Assembly: GCA_029978335.1 (NCBI GenBank) | Contig: JAPOJQ010000001.1 | Location: 1 to 64,000 of the forward strand | Origin: Actinomycetota bacterium | GTDB taxonomy: Bacteria; Actinomycetota; Acidimicrobiia; Acidimicrobiales; Ilumatobacteraceae | DNA: 64,000 nt | Reading direction: 5' to 3' | Shown: positions 1,401 to 23,709 of the stretch, one piece after another | Position numbering within the stretch: the stretch's first letter is position 1 | Layout: the number at the start of each line of letters is the position of its first letter | Notes under the pieces: model-generated | Seen by the model: the letters and a program-made list of their open reading frames with translations, nothing else | Database searches by the model: none | Told to the model about the DNA's origin: nothing | Translations under genes and position numbers: made by a program

Positions 1401-3967
<2,567 letters not shown>

Positions 3968-4008: not shown

Positions 4009-4476
4009 ATGAACGCCGCACGGCCGACCTCATGGCGATCTCGGTTGCGTCACCGCGCCCGTCCTGCCTCCGCTGCGGGGAGATCACGGCTCGGCAATCG
4101 CCCGCCAGCACAAGGCCGTCGTAGCCGACCCGCATTGATTCTCGGAGCCGCGGTGATCATCGTGTTGACCGCCGGGGTTGCCTCGATCGTCGTTCTGCCA
4201 CTCCAGAACTACGTCGCCCAGGGCGACGAGATCACCCGCCTCGAGACCGAACTCGGCCGTCTTGAAGCGGTCAATGCAGACCTCGCTGCCGAAGTTGCGC
4301 GCCTTCGCACCGACGACGGCATTCGTGAAGCGGCTCGGGACGAACTCGGCTATGTGGCCGATGGCGAGGTGCGTCAGACGGTGCTCGGGTCCGGTGGACT
4401 GCCGATCGATCTTCCCAACGGCTGGCCCTACGGTGGACTCGCTGACATCATCGCCATGCGGTCTGCCGGCGGCTGA
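4009..4476 (+). CDS. ftsB: FtsB/DivIC-family septum formation initiator
   Basis: Bitopic cell-division protein of the DivIC/FtsB family. It has a basic N-terminal tail of about 40 residues, one membrane segment (around 45-67, LILGAAVIIVLTAGVAS), then a short coiled coil (EITRLETELGRLEAVNADLAAEV-type heptads, around 75-105) and the characteristic AARDELGYV segment (around 113-121). GTG at 4003 is also in frame, but ATG 4009 sits 7 bases after a weak CATCAT -10-like box. The position directly after eno supports the assignment. In related actinobacteria a DUF501 gene follows here; in this genome DUF501 lies 17.6 kb further on. Confidence 0.85.
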   Translation: MNAARPTSWRSRLRHRARPASAAGRSRLGNRPPAQGRRSRPALILGAAVIIVLTAGVASIVVLPLQNYVAQGDEITRLETELGRLEAVNADLAAEVARLRTDDGIREAARDELGYVADGEVRQTVLGSGGLPIDLPNGWPYGGLADIIAMRSAGG

Positions 4477-16878: not shown

Positions 16879-17772
16879 GTGACACCTGAGTCCGTTCAGT
16901 CTGCGCTCGCCGAACATGGCTATCTCGCCGATCGCGGCCTCTCGACGGCGCTCATGCTGGCGATCGATCTTCGACGCCCGCTCCTTCTCGAAGGCGACCC
17001 CGGTGTCGGCAAAACCGAATTGGCGAAAGTCATCGCTCAATGGACGGGCGGCGAACTGATCCGCCTGCAGTGTTACGAAGGCATCGATGTCGCCCAAGCC
17101 GTCTACGACTGGGACTACACACGTCAACTACTGCACCTTCGAGCGAGTGAAGCTGCTGGTTCAGCGAATGGACGGTCAACGTCTGACCTCGAAGCCGAGT
17201 TGTACGACGAACGCTTTCTCATTCGTCGTGCCATTTTGCGAGCCGTCACCCCCGTCGACGGACCTCCTCCGGTGTTGCTCATCGACGAAATCGACCGAGC
17301 CGATGACGAGTTTGAGGCCTACCTCCTCGAAGTGTTGTCGGACTTCCAGGTCACGGTGCCCGAACTTGGCGTGATCCGAACGGAGCGGCCTCCGGTCGTC
17401 ATCCTCACGTCCAACCGAACGCGTGATGTTCACGATGCGCTCAAGCGACGCTGCTTGTACCACTGGGTGGAGCATCCCTCGCTTGAACGCGAGGTTGACA
17501 TCGTGCGCCTTCGGGTCCCTGGGATCGCACCGGCCCTCGCCCGCAGTATCGCTGCTGCGGTGTCCGAACTGCGATCGATGGACCTGTACAAGCCACCGGG
17601 GATCGCCGAGACGATCGACTGGGCGACGGCACTGCAGCGACTGGGCATCGATGTGATCGAACCTGAATCGATGAAGGCGACGCTCGGAACCGTCGTCAAA
17701 TATCGAGAAGACACCGACAAGGTCGAAGTTCACGGACTCGGCGCAATCGCCGAACGGGCACAACTGCGATGA
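16879..17772 (+). CDS. coxD: MoxR-type AAA+ ATPase, CoxD-like
   Basis: Cytosolic AAA+ chaperone. CoxD is known to help build the Mo/Cu active site in CO dehydrogenase systems. Walker A GDPGVGKTE (around 40-48), Walker B LLIDEIDRAD (around 133), sensor TSNRTRD (around 177) and arginine-finger context RRCLYHW are intact. The GTG start is 7 bases after TAACCT, so coxD and the genes behind it probably have their own leaderless promoter. It overlaps coxE by 4 bases. Confidence 0.92.
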   Translation: MTPESVQSALAEHGYLADRGLSTALMLAIDLRRPLLLEGDPGVGKTELAKVIAQWTGGELIRLQCYEGIDVAQAVYDWDYTRQLLHLRASEAAGSANGRSTSDLEAELYDERFLIRRAILRAVTPVDGPPPVLLIDEIDRADDEFEAYLLEVLSDFQVTVPELGVIRTERPPVVILTSNRTRDVHDALKRRCLYHWVEHPSLEREVDIVRLRVPGIAPALARSIAAAVSELRSMDLYKPPGIAETIDWATALQRLGIDVIEPESMKATLGTVVKYREDTDKVEVHGLGAIAERAQLR

Positions 17773-18965
17773 ACCAAGGGAGCACGCTCCCCGCCGAACC
17801 GCTCCTCGGGTTCGTTCGTGCGCTTCGCCTCGCTGGGCTCGCCGTTCCAACCAGTTGCGCCATCAATTTCGCTGAGGCGCTCGGCCGACTCGATATTCGA
17901 CGCCGTGACGACGTGTATTGGGCCGGTCGAACGACACTCGTTCGACGTCCCGAAGACCTCAACACCTACGACACGGTATTCGCCACGTTTTGGGAGTCGG
18001 CCGCGCCAGCACCAGCATCGGCTGCGGCAACCGACTACCTCACACTGGTCGTCGATAGCGACGATGACGACTCGACATCTGACAACGACGGCGACGCCGA
18101 CGACGAGACCGCTGGCGACTCCATCGAGTTGCGGTTCTCAGCAGCGGAGATGCTGCGTCACAAGGACTTCGCTGAGTGGACCGACGCTGAACTCGCCGAA
18201 TCGCGCCGGATCATGGGCCGATTGCGCCTCAGCGGCGAGCCCCAACATTCACTTCGCCACCGGCCGACCGGGCGACGCGGTGAGCGCCCCGACCTGCGTC
18301 GAACGGTCCGAGCTGCAATGGCATCTGAAGGTGAGCCGATCCGACGACAGTGGCGATCGCCGGCCATCAAGCCACGGCGCCTCGTGCTGATCCTCGATGT
18401 GAGCGGATCGATGGAACCGTACGCGCGGGCACTGATTCGCTTTGCTCACGCTGCAGTGATTGGACGCCAGCGCGTCGAGGTATTTGCGCTCGGCACCCGG
18501 CTCACACGTATCACTCGAGAACTTCAGCGTCGAGATGTCGACGACGCCGTCAGCCACGCCGCAGCGCGGGTCGTTGACTGGAGTGGGGGCACCCGAATCG
18601 GGGAAGGGCTGCGAACGTTCAACGACCGTTGGGGTCAGCGCGGCACCGCCCGCGGCGCGGTGGTCGTGGTGTTGTCCGATGGCTGGGACCGTGGGGATCC
18701 GGAGGCACTCGCCACCCAAATGGCGCGCCTTGGCCGACTCGCCCATCGCATCGTCTGGGTCAACCCGCTCAAGGTCACGCCGGGCTACGCACCCCTTGCC
18801 CGCGGAATGGCTGCGGCACTGCCCTATGTTGACGACTTCATTGAAGGCCACAACATCAATGCGCTCGAAGAACTTGCTGCGATCGTTGGGGCATCGTCGC
18901 CATTGCGGCGACACACTGAGCAGACTGGCCATCGAACCGGTTCGGCAATGCAGGAGGCGTCGTGA
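17769..18965 (+). CDS. coxE: VWA domain protein, CoxE-like
   Basis: Partner of the MoxR ATPase in cofactor insertion. The N-terminal half is helical with a very acidic insert (DSDDDDSTSDNDGDADDE, around 97-114); the C-terminal half is a von Willebrand A domain with MIDAS DVSGSMEPY (around 211), a threonine site SGGTRIGEG (around 275) and LSDGWDRGD (around 301). About 398 residues, normal for the CoxE family. It is coupled by 4-base overlaps to coxD and to the XdhC-like gene. Confidence 0.92.
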   Translation: MNQGSTLPAEPLLGFVRALRLAGLAVPTSCAINFAEALGRLDIRRRDDVYWAGRTTLVRRPEDLNTYDTVFATFWESAAPAPASAAATDYLTLVVDSDDDDSTSDNDGDADDETAGDSIELRFSAAEMLRHKDFAEWTDAELAESRRIMGRLRLSGEPQHSLRHRPTGRRGERPDLRRTVRAAMASEGEPIRRQWRSPAIKPRRLVLILDVSGSMEPYARALIRFAHAAVIGRQRVEVFALGTRLTRITRELQRRDVDDAVSHAAARVVDWSGGTRIGEGLRTFNDRWGQRGTARGAVVVVLSDGWDRGDPEALATQMARLGRLAHRIVWVNPLKVTPGYAPLARGMAAALPYVDDFIEGHNINALEELAAIVGASSPLRRHTEQTGHRTGSAMQEAS

Positions 18966-19279
18966 GAGAACTACTCGATGATCTAGAGCGCTGGCAACGC
19001 TCTTCGACCCGGGTCGCGATCGCCCGCGTCGTCGATGTCGAGGGATCGGGCCCGCGCGGTCCTGGCGCTGCGATGGCAGTGAGCATCGACGGTGAGGTTG
19101 TGGGCAGCGTGAGCGGTGGATGTGTCGAAGGAGCCGTCGTCACCGAGGCCCTTGCCCTGCTCAACGGCGACCGCGAGCCCGGGCTCGTGACCTTCGGGTA
19201 TAGCGACGATGAAGCATTTGCAGTCGGTCTGACCTGCGGTGGCACGATCCGCCTCTTCATTGAGGAGTTCAACTGGTGA
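18962..19279 (+). CDS. XdhC/CoxI N-terminal domain protein
   Basis: A 105-residue protein that is only the XdhC_CoxI domain, which in full-length XdhC helps hold and insert sulfurated Mo cofactor. GSGPRGPGAAM, SVSGGCVEGAVV and LTCGGTIRLFIEE match the family. In many actinobacteria this domain begins a single protein of about 380 residues; here it ends at TGA 19277-19279 and the rest is the next ORF, in a GTGA overlap. Either a natural fission or a frameshift in the sequence. Confidence 0.85.
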   Translation: MRELLDDLERWQRSSTRVAIARVVDVEGSGPRGPGAAMAVSIDGEVVGSVSGGCVEGAVVTEALALLNGDREPGLVTFGYSDDEAFAVGLTCGGTIRLFIEEFNW

Positions 19280-20079
19280 CGCTGTCACAACGACTCGCCA
19301 CCGCTCTTCGTGAAGGTGTGCCCATCGCCCTGGCGACCGTGATCGAGGGACCCGGCGTTGGCCGTCACTTACTGATCGATCCGCATGGTGATCCGGAGGG
19401 CTCCCTTGGCCATCCCGACCTCGACCGTGTGGTGCATCGAGACGGCATTGCTGAACTCGAAGCCGGACGTTCAGGGGTTCGCACCTACGGCCCCGAAGGC
19501 CAGACCACACCCGAAGACCTGATCGATACGCCACAGGTCAAGGTGTTCGTTGAAAGTTGGGCTCCGCCACCTCAGATGTGGATCTTCGGTGCTGTTGACT
19601 TCACCGCGGCGCTCGCGCGCGTCGCCAAGGTGCTTGGCTATCGGGTCATCGTGTGCGATGCACGAGAGATTTTCGCCACCGGACGCCGCTTCCCGATGGC
19701 CGATGAGGTGCGTGTCTCGTGGCCTTCGCCGCTGTTCGCGGAACGTGGTGGCGAACTCGGTCCACGCGACGCGGTGTGCATTCTGACCCATGATCCGAAG
19801 TTCGATGTTCCAGCGGTGCAGGGCGCGCTCGCCACTCGCGCTGGCTACATCGGTGTGATGGGGAGTCGCACCACCCATGCCCGCCGCGTGGAACGCCTCG
19901 CCGAGGCCGGCATCACCAACGTGGCCGATCTCAATCGACTCATGTCGCCGATCGGGCTTGATCTCGGTGCTCGAACACCGGAGGAAACCGCGATCTCAAT
20001 CTGCGCAGAGATCATTGCGGCTCGAACCGGCCGTGGGGCTCGGTCGCTCCGAGACGGATCAGGGCCGATCCATCCCTGA
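19276..20079 (+). CDS. XdhC family protein, C-terminal part with Rossmann domain
   Basis: 267 residues. The first 100 or so (ALATVIEGPGVGRHLLI, GSLGHPDLD, GRSGVRTYG) match the middle of long XdhC/CoxI proteins, and the rest is the XdhC Rossmann domain (MWIFGAVDFTAALARVAKVLGY, ILTHDPKFDVPA, YIGVMGSRTTHARR). It is the expected partner of the preceding 105-residue domain. The role is Mo-cofactor handling for the Cox enzymes. It ends 4 bases from the convergent NlpC/P60 gene. Confidence 0.88.
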   Translation: MTLSQRLATALREGVPIALATVIEGPGVGRHLLIDPHGDPEGSLGHPDLDRVVHRDGIAELEAGRSGVRTYGPEGQTTPEDLIDTPQVKVFVESWAPPPQMWIFGAVDFTAALARVAKVLGYRVIVCDAREIFATGRRFPMADEVRVSWPSPLFAERGGELGPRDAVCILTHDPKFDVPAVQGALATRAGYIGVMGSRTTHARRVERLAEAGITNVADLNRLMSPIGLDLGARTPEETAISICAEIIAARTGRGARSLRDGSGPIHP

Positions 20080-20083
20080 CGAG

Positions 20084-20731
20084 TTACGGGGTCGGATCAG
20101 CGAATCGGACCCAACTCGCCCGGCGATCCGAGAGCACCATGTACTCAACGGTCCGACCGCGCGTCGGGCTGTGCACGATGGCGTCGCCGACGCCGAGATA
20201 GAGCATCACGTGTCCTGGGTACCAGACGAGATCGCCGGCATGGGCGTCGTCGTGAGACACCTCGGTCGCCGCTGCGAATTGGTTACGGCTCGAACGCTCA
20301 AGTTCGACATCGGCTTGCGACCACGCATAGCGCGTGAGCCCCGAGCAATCGAACGCCTCTCCGGGGGCTGAGGCATACCTGCGGTAGGTCACTCCAAGTT
20401 GTCCGAGCGCTGCGAGTACGGCCGTCTGTCCATCGAGGTCAGCAACGGCCCACGCATCGACCATCTCGACGGGATCGAGCCCGAGGGTGCGGGCAACAAC
20501 CGCTGCCACTGCATCTCGGTTATCAAGATAGGTGAGATAGGCAGCGGTATCCCCTTCGCTTTCCCATCGCTCAAGTGCATCGAGTGCCGCGTGTGCCCCC
20601 GACGTGACGTCAACCTGTTCGGACACTGGCTCGCCTGCAGCGGCTGCATGCGACACACCGATACCGGCACTGACGAGGATCATCGTCACGATGCCAGCAA
20701 GGCGGAGCGAGGGTCGGCGAGAACGGTCCAT
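20084..20731 (-). CDS. Secreted NlpC/P60 peptidoglycan endopeptidase
   Basis: Cell-wall hydrolase exported through Sec. The N-terminus has basic residues, a hydrophobic core (LAGIVTMILVSAGIGVS) and an AAAAG cleavage region (around 30-34). The C-terminal NlpC/P60 domain carries the catalytic Cys in AFDCSGLTRY (around 127) and the His in PGHVMLYLG (around 174). It is on the opposite strand inside the cox maturation cluster, with no evident link to it. A likely promoter is TTGATT/TAGATT (20792-20797 and 20768-20773, 18-base spacer). Confidence 0.9.
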   Translation of the reverse strand: MDRSRRPSLRLAGIVTMILVSAGIGVSHAAAAGEPVSEQVDVTSGAHAALDALERWESEGDTAAYLTYLDNRDAVAAVVARTLGLDPVEMVDAWAVADLDGQTAVLAALGQLGVTYRRYASAPGEAFDCSGLTRYAWSQADVELERSSRNQFAAATEVSHDDAHAGDLVWYPGHVMLYLGVGDAIVHSPTRGRTVEYMVLSDRRASWVRFADPTP

Positions 20732-20767
20732 AGGTGGCCTCAGAGGCGTCGACAGATCGACGTGACG

Positions 20768-20797
20768 AATCTACCGTCATGATTTCGTAACAATCAA
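20768..20797 (-). promoter_or_regulatory. Probable sigma-70-type promoter of the NlpC/P60 gene
   Basis: Reading the minus strand, TTGATT (20797-20792), an 18-base spacer and TAGATT (20773-20768). This is one of few promoters here with a recognisable -35. It gives a leader of about 30 bases. Confidence 0.45.
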
Positions 20798-20862
20798 CGC
20801 GACCGACACAGATCCGTCATCGATCCGTCATCTTCTGTCGTCGTTATTCACCCGACCGTGAA

Positions 20863-20874
20863 GGGTGCGAGACT
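20863..20874 (+). promoter_or_regulatory. Putative extended -10 element GGGTGCGAGACT
   Basis: Same 12-mer as at 24930-24941, here 6 bases before the mocA ATG. GAGAC-T-GTCTC dyad symmetry (20869-20879) overlaps it. Confidence 0.35.
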
Positions 20875-20880
20875 GTCTCA

Positions 20881-21474
20881 ATGCCGTCCGCCCCGCACCC
20901 AAAGGTCGTTGCGGTGCTGCTCGCCGCCGGCGCCGGACATCGTTTCGACGGACCAACCCACAAGCTGTTGGCGACGATCGACGGCGTGCCGATTTGGCAA
21001 CACGCTCTGAACGCAGCGCTCGGCGCCAATGTGCCAGTTGTCCTCGTCACTGGAGCCGCCGAACTCGCTCCCATACCGCCGACCGTGACAGTGGTCCACA
21101 ATTCCAACTGGCAGCAAGGCCAGGCAGGATCACTCACTCTCGGCATCCAAGCCGCTCGCGACCTCGGCGCTGAGGTTGTGGTGACGGGTCTCGCCGATCA
21201 ACCCGGGGTGAGTGCATCCGCATGGCGCCGACTCACTCAGCACACCGCTGACCTCGCCGTCGCGACCTATGACGGCCAACGTGGTCATCCAGTGCGGATT
21301 GCACACACCTACTGGCCTGAACTACCCACGCACGGTGACCTCGGAGCTCGCGACGTGCTCGCTCGGCACGCCGACGCCGTTGAGCAGATACCCTGCGAGG
21401 GTTCGCCCGATGACATCGACACTGCAAAGGACCTCGAACGATGGCTGAGACGATCACCAACGAGTTCACCGTAA
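20881..21474 (+). CDS. mocA: MocA-like molybdenum cofactor cytidylyltransferase
   Basis: Nucleotidyltransferase of the MobA/MocA family, expected to join CTP to molybdopterin to give the MCD cofactor used by xanthine oxidase family enzymes. The nucleotide loop is LAAGAGHRFDGPTHKLL (around 13-29), and GLADQPGVSASAW (around 101) and GQRGHPVRI (around 131) are family motifs. 197 residues, normal. Its presence inside the cox cluster fits the cofactor need. It overlaps coxG by 34 bases. Confidence 0.88.
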   Translation: MPSAPHPKVVAVLLAAGAGHRFDGPTHKLLATIDGVPIWQHALNAALGANVPVVLVTGAAELAPIPPTVTVVHNSNWQQGQAGSLTLGIQAARDLGAEVVVTGLADQPGVSASAWRRLTQHTADLAVATYDGQRGHPVRIAHTYWPELPTHGDLGARDVLARHADAVEQIPCEGSPDDIDTAKDLERWLRRSPTSSP

Positions 21475-22133
21475 ATCGCCCGATTGACGAAGCATGGGCC
21501 GTGCTCTGCGACGTCGAGCGCATTGCGCCCTGTCTGCCCGGCGCTCAACTTCAAGAAATTGAAGGCGAGACCTTTCGCGGCGTCGTCAAGATCAAGCTCG
21601 GAGCGGTGAACGCCAACTTCAAAGGCGAAGCCAAATTCGTCGAACGCGATGACACCGCTCACCGCGCCGTGTTGTCGGCATCTGGTCGTGACACCGGTGG
21701 TCGTGGCAACGCGAGCGCCGACGTGACCGCCGAGGCCGTTGCCTTGTCCCCCACGAGCACCCGTTGCACCGTTACCGCGGAGCTGCACATCACCGGCAAG
21801 GTGGCTCAATTCGGTCGAGGCATCATGGGCGACGTTTCCAAGAAGCTGATGGATCAGTTCTCGGCCAACCTCAACACCATGCTCGATGAGCAGGTCGTAT
21901 CGGCACCTGCGGCTGAGTCCAACGAGTCGGGTACTCACGACACACCGGCCCCTTCGTCAACATCCGCCGATGACACCGGCCCGAACGAGCGGCCGACCGT
22001 ACGCCGCATCGAAGGACCGGCAGCAGAACCCATCGACGTCGCAGGCCTCGCTGGCCCGGCCGTGTTGAAGCGCGTCGCCCCCGTTGCACTGGCGGTGCTG
22101 GTGCTCCTCTTACTCTTCCGCCGACGTCGGTGA
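21441..22133 (+). CDS. coxG: CoxG-like SRPBCC protein with C-terminal membrane anchor
   Basis: CoxG family protein, thought to recruit CO-dehydrogenase-type enzymes to the membrane. The SRPBCC fold spans about 1-150 (FTVNRPIDEAWAVLCDVE, CLPGAQL, GKVAQFGRGIM), followed by a Ser/Thr/Pro-rich linker (155-200) and a single membrane helix near the end (VAPVALAVLVLLLLF) capped by four arginines. The start lies 34 bases inside mocA. The next gene begins in a GTGA overlap. Confidence 0.9.
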   Translation: MAETITNEFTVNRPIDEAWAVLCDVERIAPCLPGAQLQEIEGETFRGVVKIKLGAVNANFKGEAKFVERDDTAHRAVLSASGRDTGGRGNASADVTAEAVALSPTSTRCTVTAELHITGKVAQFGRGIMGDVSKKLMDQFSANLNTMLDEQVVSAPAAESNESGTHDTPAPSSTSADDTGPNERPTVRRIEGPAAEPIDVAGLAGPAVLKRVAPVALAVLVLLLLFRRRR

Positions 22134-23068
22134 CCGCCGAGGTTGCTTCCGAAGACGACCGGCGTCAGATCAAGGAGCTGCTCGGCCGGGAGCCAATGGG
22201 GGTCTTCACCGTTGCCGTCCGCGATGCCAGCGGTCGTCCCGTCGTGATCGAGAATGCACCCCTCCTCGACGACGGAACACCGATGCCGACGAGGTTCTGG
22301 CTCGTCGGTGCAACCGAGAGCCACGCCATCGCCACACTCGAGGCAGATGGCGGTGTGCGACGAGCAGAAGCCGCAATTGCTCCTGGCGACATCGAAGCCA
22401 CCCACCGTCGCCACGCTGCGGCTCGTGACGCGCTCATCCCCGATGATCACGAGGGTCCACGCCCAACTGGCGGCGTGGGAGGCACTCGCACCGGCGTGAA
22501 GTGCTTGCACGCCCATTACGCGTGCCACCTCGCCGGCGAGGACGATGCCGTTGGCGAGTGGGTCGCTCAACGATTGTCAGAGGTCCGACTCACCGTTGGC
22601 GCCCAGAGCACCAACGTGACGATTGCAGGGCGAATCAGCGAACTCCCTACCGGCATCGATGACATCACCCAGCGGATCTCCCACCGCGACCCGCCAGATC
22701 CCGCCGACCTGACGAACGCGATTGGCGTGGTGACCGATCAACTCGATGACCTGCTTCTGCGCGCTGATATCGAACGGCAGTCGATCTCTGGACTGGTGAT
22801 CGATGGACGACCTGGAACGGCGATGGCGGTGCTTGAAACCGGTCTCGCTGTCACCGAATCGACCGAAGTTGATCGCGCCACACTTGAAGAACTGTTCCGC
22901 TTGCTCGCAACCGACGATGCATCGGGCCGAGCATCGCAGCCAGGACTTGTGGCTGACGATGCCCCCATTGTGCTGGCGACGGCGATTATCGGCGTGGCAG
23001 TCTCACGGCGGCTTCGTGTTGACCGGATCCGACTTGGCGACGACACGACGCGGAGCGTGCGGACGTGA
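22130..23068 (+). CDS. DUF501 protein fused to the C-terminal half of a Ppx/GppA-like domain
   Basis: 312 residues. The first 145 or so are DUF501 (MGVFTVAVR, PTRFWLVG, GVKCLHAHYACHLAG). From about 152 the sequence tracks the second half of exopolyphosphatase/GppA: GAQSTNVTIAG corresponds to the GGGST loop, then LPTGIDDITQR, the RDPPDPADL linker, VIDGRPGTAMAVLE, and DDAPIVLATAIIGVAVSRRL near the end. The N-terminal Ppx subdomain with the first phosphate loop and catalytic Glu is absent, so hydrolase activity is unlikely. In other actinobacteria DUF501 and ppx are separate neighbours. Fusion is my inference from motif alignment. Confidence 0.75.
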   Translation: MTAEVASEDDRRQIKELLGREPMGVFTVAVRDASGRPVVIENAPLLDDGTPMPTRFWLVGATESHAIATLEADGGVRRAEAAIAPGDIEATHRRHAAARDALIPDDHEGPRPTGGVGGTRTGVKCLHAHYACHLAGEDDAVGEWVAQRLSEVRLTVGAQSTNVTIAGRISELPTGIDDITQRISHRDPPDPADLTNAIGVVTDQLDDLLLRADIERQSISGLVIDGRPGTAMAVLETGLAVTESTEVDRATLEELFRLLATDDASGRASQPGLVADDAPIVLATAIIGVAVSRRLRVDRIRLGDDTTRSVRT

Positions 23069-23709
23069 TGATGCGAGGCCCACGGTCATCACCGCGCGGC
23101 AGTCACCTGAACCTGCGCGGCGCTCGCGTCAGTCTTCGCCCGCTTACCGACACCGACTTCAACGCGTGGAGCGAGATCCGCCAGCGCAATGCCGATTGGC
23201 TTTTGCCGTGGGAACCACTGCGGCCGCCGTACCTGCCCGACCCGGCGACCGACCGTGGAGCGTTCGTCACTCGCTGCCGGGCCAGGGAACGAGAAACCAT
23301 CGCGGACCACGCGTATCCCTTTGGCATCTTTCTCGGCGCCACGTTGATTGGTGAGATCAACCTCAACAACATCGTTCGTGGCGCGCTACAGACGGGAACG
23401 GTCGGCTACTGGATCGACCGCCAACATGCCGGACATGCCTACATGTCGGAATCATTGGTGGTGGTCTGTGACTTCGCGTTCGAGCGACTCGACCTTCATC
23501 GCCTCGAGATCTGCATCGTCCCGCGCAATGTCAACAGTCGGCGAGTTGTCGACAAACTCAGCCTGCGCCTCGAAGGCACAGCCGAGCGATACCTACAAAT
23601 CGCCGGCACGTGGGAGGACCACCTCCGCTACGCGATCACGCTTGAAGAATGGACCGAACGTCGGGACGAGCTCACCAAACGGTGGCTCGTCCCGAGTCCG
23701 ACGAACTAA
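23068..23709 (+). CDS. GNAT acetyltransferase, RimJ/RimL type
   Basis: Probable protein N-terminal or amino-group acetyltransferase using acetyl-CoA. GARVSLRPLTDTDF begins the fold (around 12), GVG-type strand is TVGYWIDRQHAGHAYMSESL (around 112-131, with the acetyl-CoA loop), and RLEICIVPRNVNSRRVVDKL (around 148) is the RimJ hallmark. ATG 23068 overlaps the previous stop by one base (TGATG); GTG 23065 is also possible. Confidence 0.88.
   Translation: MMRGPRSSPRGSHLNLRGARVSLRPLTDTDFNAWSEIRQRNADWLLPWEPLRPPYLPDPATDRGAFVTRCRARERETIADHAYPFGIFLGATLIGEINLNNIVRGALQTGTVGYWIDRQHAGHAYMSESLVVVCDFAFERLDLHRLEICIVPRNVNSRRVVDKLSLRLEGTAERYLQIAGTWEDHLRYAITLEEWTERRDELTKRWLVPSPTN

Follow-up and report, generated by a model that had tools for sequence, protein, structure and literature searches.

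One open reading frame in the window, by which we mean the whole 64,000-nucleotide stretch analysed here, raises the question of why half of an enzyme should be kept once the other half is gone. The frame encodes 312 amino acids from a GTG start, contains no stop or frameshift, and joins a DUF501 domain (residues 1-150) without a linker to lobe II, the second half, of a Ppx2-type Ppx/GppA protein (residues 151-306). The features needed to follow the argument are these.

3104 to 3955, forward strand: enolase (eno), ancestral neighbour of ftsB-DUF501-ppx2, about 18 kb upstream of DUF501
4162 to 4371, forward strand: FtsB/DivIC, ancestral upstream neighbour of DUF501, about 18 kb upstream of it
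21441 to 22133, forward strand: CoxG, upstream syntenic marker (PF06240, E 4.6e-18); its stop overlaps the start of the fusion gene
22130 to 23068, forward strand: the fusion gene
22130 to 22579, forward strand: DUF501 domain, intact (residues 1-150; PF04417, E 5.6e-22; 0/64 conserved columns lost)
22580 to 23065, forward strand: Ppx2 lobe II, half ASKHA fold of the order bbb-a-b-a-b-a (residues 151-312, ordered to about 306; AlphaFold)
22595 to 22618, forward strand: degenerate P2 phosphate/metal loop (residues 156-163, VGAQSTNV replacing IGGGSTE; alignment)
22688 to 22738, forward strand: kept helix-start motif DPPxPxxLTNAIGxVxD (residues 187-203; invariant positions in fused proteins)
22880 to 22948, forward strand: kept class-specific patch (residues 251-273, TLEELFRLLATDDASGRASQPGL; alignment)
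23065 to 23709, forward strand: GNAT acetyltransferase, downstream syntenic marker (PF13302, E 4.3e-21); its start overlaps the stop of the fusion gene

The DUF501 part, encoded by the only DUF501 gene of the genome, is matched by PF04417 over residues 29-146 with 78.6 bits against a cut-off of 23.8. PF02541 (Ppx-GppA) aligns only its profile positions 140-270, to residues 172-304, and scores 15.9 bits, under its 27-bit cut-off. We take this match to be real, since Pfam reports the same family in fused orthologues (at up to 8.9e-06) and the predicted structure matches lobe II of Ppx/GppA proteins. Lobe I, with the P1 phosphate loop (DxGTNS) and the catalytic Arg and Glu, is absent between DUF501 and lobe II. 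A PDB sequence search with the protein found no relatives, nor did single-protein scans of viral sequences and, at first, of genome contigs.

An AlphaFold model of the fusion, built with 56 aligned rows, has a mean pLDDT of 94.2 and a pTM of 0.89 over both domains together, and shows no disordered linker. Its residues 151-302 form a single ASKHA lobe, and the best 37 Foldseek matches in the PDB are all Ppx/GppA proteins; the structure matches listed for the 312-residue model fall mainly on the Ppx part, not on DUF501. In VIA-align, residues 147-306 superimpose on 133-296 of Aquifex Ppx/GppA (1t6c; Z 18.0, 2.0 Å over 153 residues), and residues from about 147 to 306 match lobe II of 23 Ppx/GppA PDB entries (Z 12.5-18.6). 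A natural DUF501-full-Ppx fusion from a sister genus (L065), used as a control, aligns to the whole of Ppx (Z 43.6, 305 residues), which, together with the confinement of the window protein to lobe II, indicates that lobe I is missing and lobe II complete. The initial annotation had read the gene as DUF501 fused to the second half of Ppx without the catalytic subdomain and had expected a half-ASKHA fold; Pfam, the model and the lobe II-only structure match bear out both.

The window protein was used to survey 61 relatives. The fused half occurs in every member of the window genus with a complete gene, the members without a full match being incomplete or fragmented (G002, G008, G009) or cut by a contig end (G013). 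It is also found in genera g5, g7, g8, g9, g17, g19, g20 and g50 and in one member of g11, and a half-Ppx is encoded as a separate gene in g11, g13, g14, g16, g18 and g21. Counted over all fetched loci, redundancy included, there are 103 separate full, 47 fused half, 24 separate half and 19 fused full forms. The half form is fixed across many Ilumatobacteraceae genera, and the architecture is clade-wide.

All halves found lie directly 3′ of DUF501. In the separate half forms of this family lobe II starts 62-80 nt past the DUF501 stop, compared with 446-524 nt for a complete ppx2; a different half form, with a distance of 167 nt, is seen in families f5 and f17. CoxG and the GNAT acetyltransferase flank DUF501 in all four architectures. 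The distance from DUF501 to the start of the GNAT match is 476-700 nt for a half and mostly 934-1137 nt for a full-length ppx2, the slot of the half being shorter by about one lobe I. These conserved flanks and the shorter gap indicate that the half occupies the ppx2 slot, which holds a half-Ppx in the Ilumatobacteraceae clade and full-length ppx2 in relatives. The initial annotation had described DUF501 and ppx2 of mycobacteria as separate neighbours beside eno and ftsB. They are indeed usually separate neighbours, but here eno and ftsB, although on the same contig and strand, are not adjacent. Between ftsB and DUF501 lie molybdenum hydroxylase/CO dehydrogenase accessory genes (17769-22133: CoxE, XdhC N-terminal and full, MobA-like, CoxG), and this order, with CoxG overlapping the start of DUF501, recurs widely in Acidimicrobiia.

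Several loci outside the main group are worth recording. Two more half-Ppx genes with a different breakpoint follow DUF501 in f5 (L073) and f17 (L079) and appear to be independent truncations; the f17 half keeps part of the P2 loop (VDIGVGST). A second kind of fusion, DUF501 with full-length Ppx2 in one frame, occurs in genus g6 and in scattered other Acidimicrobiia and Actinomycetota (genomes G020, G069, G084, G097, G108, G119, G129 and G149, loci L065 and L093-L099; further loci L144, L160, L171, L212 and L223). It has the same order and a single open frame as in the window, whereas its Ppx2 is complete, with both lobes. Three loci titled Bifidobacterium breve (L156, L166, L179; CAMBPP010000012.1, CAMCZG010000038.1, CAMDLK010000004.1) carry acidimicrobial DUF501-ppx2 genes with synteny as elsewhere, and their titles look mislabelled.

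A tree of DUF501 alone (146 columns) was poorly resolved and was replaced by one of DUF501 plus lobe II. The Ilumatobacteraceae halves group together in this tree as a single clade (45 rows, SH-aLRT 100), with the f5 and f17 halves outside it, although shared loss of conserved residues could partly group the halves. Starred branches of the tree require a minimum of three switches between the half and the full form, on this alignment most simply explained as, apparently, three losses of lobe I; the fusion state requires eight parsimony changes.

Which residues survived was assessed by comparing 31 halves with full Ppx2 sequences, 20 of them acidimicrobial and 29 from elsewhere. Lobe II has 36 positions that all actinobacterial Ppx2 conserve, mainly in the phosphate/metal site, and their mean retention in the halves is 0.25. 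For the 21 class-specific positions, whose conservation among actinobacterial Ppx2 is confined to those of Acidimicrobiia, it is 0.70 (Mann-Whitney p 2e-6, only a guide since positions are not independent). Of the metal ligands in DxGGGSTE the Asp is kept in 16% of halves and the Glu in 0/31; the AG of AGTxTT is kept in 0%, the Arg of GRxDVI in 3% and SExDILDG in 0-10%. The GGGST-like loop noted in the initial annotation is thus rightly placed in lobe II, but is degenerate: the P2 region of the window protein reads TVGAQSTN, with T155 and N162 in place of the Asp and Glu ligands and S160-T161 kept. In contrast, E236, F256, R257 and R293 are invariant across the halves, F256 and R257 being present in 100% of them against 0.03 in other actinobacterial Ppx2. 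Across ten genera, 16 fused proteins likewise share P191, L194, T195, N196, G199 and D203 without exception. The f5 and f17 halves have lost hardly any of the class-specific residues and retain the motif. The class-specific segment, AAVExGL...AEDVFRTLATExxxDRxHNPGL, is also present in full Acidimicrobiia Ppx2 that are otherwise normal (e.g. L088:2044-2973), where the consensus of the patch is AaEDVFRTLATExxxDRxHNPGL; neither other actinobacterial Ppx2 nor the family's Ppx-HD paralogues were seen to carry it. Of the 64 DUF501 columns conserved in the full-Ppx lineage, none is lost in the half-Ppx lineage; the core in the window protein comprises R20, R31, P37, P44, G49, P51, P53, T54, E71, R99, G118 and K124-C125-L126-H127. 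Together, the intact DUF501 and the lost pan-Ppx residues indicate that DUF501 persists in the absence of an active Ppx, and that the surviving part is not the catalytic face.

We consider it probable that the Ppx2 lobe II is a catalytically dead, structural or regulatory partner of an intact DUF501. In the proposed model, lobe II of the Acidimicrobiia Ppx2 would first have gained a second, non-catalytic surface (ExG, AEDVFRTLATE, DRxHNPGL) that binds DUF501. Ppx catalysis would then have become dispensable and lobe I would have been deleted, apparently three times, leaving lobe II as a subunit with a structural or regulatory role, which later often became fused to DUF501. DUF501, with its R, E and K-C-L-H core unaffected, would be the working part. 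The class-specific motifs might alternatively be conserved for the folding of lobe II alone. Covariation between the domains was weak, as no inter-domain pair stood out clearly in mutual information (Neff 67) from the values within domains, and the model of the DUF501-full-Ppx fusion, for which fewer paired sequences were used, has a pTM of 0.73, that is, no confident docking on full Ppx2.

What is known of these proteins elsewhere is consistent with such a partnership. DUF501 is essential in Corynebacterium diphtheriae, is reported to be essential in C. glutamicum and Mycobacterium tuberculosis (Rv1025), and adjoins ftsB (PMC10166564). By analogy with this essentiality and ftsB linkage in other actinobacteria, its role is probably linked to growth or division. 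The window protein has the complete domain with the same R/E/K-C-L-H core as Rv1025 and diphtheriae_00818, but these proteins usually stand alone and it adds a C-terminal half-Ppx. In Mycobacterium smegmatis DUF501 is also joined to an operon neighbour, there FtsB at the N-terminal side (PMC9846249), in contrast to Ppx at the C-terminal side here. Three fusion forms (FtsB-DUF501, DUF501-Ppx2 and DUF501-half-Ppx2) argue for physical association. With Ppx2 of the Rv1026/Cg1115 type (PF02541) the half shares the lobe II fold, the slot directly after DUF501 and homology over the profile positions given above; it differs in having no lobe I, and the halves in having no Mg ligands or P2 loop and in often being fused to DUF501. 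Among 20 papers that mention DUF501, judged largely by titles, there is no description of a DUF501-half-Ppx fusion.

The half could instead be a remnant that is merely tolerated, persisting by folding onto DUF501 or because its deletion would harm DUF501 expression. Its divergence between genera would fit, as dN/dS is about 0.60-0.98 for the half and 0.21-0.45 for DUF501, and so would the poor recognition of the halves by Pfam. Within the window genus, however, dN/dS of close pairs is 0.06-0.20 in the half, much as in DUF501 (0.08-0.15), and these low values indicate that the half is maintained by purifying selection. A remnant would also have to account for the strictly invariant residues across ten genera, for three apparently independent truncations and for the survival of unfused halves, whose retention no fusion imposes. 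We therefore regard a tolerated remnant as rather unlikely.

A second alternative is that lobe II is a ligand sensor, binding polyphosphate, a nucleotide or (p)ppGpp and gating DUF501. The genome encodes makers of such ligands, PPK1 and PPK2 (on contigs C81 and C68) and RelA/SpoT, the lobe II fold is intact with S160-T161 in place, and pppGpp inhibits the ATPase of full Ppx2 Rv1026 (PMC3411833). The metal ligands, the AG of AGT, the Arg of GRxDVI and SExDILDG are nevertheless lost across the halves, and the cleft has no lobe I side. Of the earlier suggestion of a binding or regulatory module for polyphosphate or (p)ppGpp, the binding part thus fares poorly on the alignment, in which the phosphate/metal residues are the very ones lost, and we think a sensor of this kind quite improbable; a regulatory or partner role of the half for DUF501 is plausible. 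Genus g1, to which the window genome belongs, has PPK1 and PPK2 with no PF02541 exopolyphosphatase detected, and PPK2-type or other enzymes may be the only ones that degrade its polyphosphate.

Very little speaks for a new enzyme in which DUF501 replaces lobe I and forms a composite active site with lobe II. The invariant DUF501 core looks enzyme-like (R20, R31, E71, R99, K124, C125, H127), and the orientation of DUF501 on lobe II is confidently predicted (pTM 0.89). However, the catalytic-side residues of lobe II are those that are lost, and DUF501 is conserved alike with a full or half partner, so that no lineage-specific change of an active site is seen. The predicted secondary structure of DUF501, three strands followed by a mainly helical part, is also unlike that of lobe I. 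A preserved lobe I encoded elsewhere was considered and rejected, as there is no separate PF02541 match: in a search for a full-length ppx, no other PF02541 protein was detected in the window genome (85.5% complete), nor any in the listed members of the genus, up to 98% complete; a separate Ppx-HD is present in several other genera of the family.

Finally, although the window genome is a fragmented, 85.5% complete MAG and other genera have a full ppx2 at this locus, as the initial annotation had anticipated for an error, a sequencing or assembly error or local pseudogene has virtually no chance of being correct, since the half architecture is found clade-wide, in over 20 genomes of which some are single-contig assemblies (fused in G033 and G075, a separate half in G027), and in an uninterrupted frame under purifying selection.

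Returning to lobe II as a catalytically dead partner, its retention fits the behaviour of M. tuberculosis Ppx2 (Rv1026), which has no detectable exopolyphosphatase activity and yet is required for optimal growth (PMC3411833). Tentatively, the main role of Ppx2 in the Actinomycetota could be that of a subunit in an essential DUF501 complex with ties to FtsB and cell division, its phosphohydrolase lobe being dispensable, and the Ilumatobacteraceae half would be its minimal, pseudo-enzyme form, showing which surface matters. DUF501 is a widespread actinobacterial protein, reported as essential in several actinobacteria including M. tuberculosis; the repeated loss of its partner's catalytic lobe, with one non-catalytic surface kept, points to a physical link between DUF501 and Ppx2 and singles out candidate residues for it.
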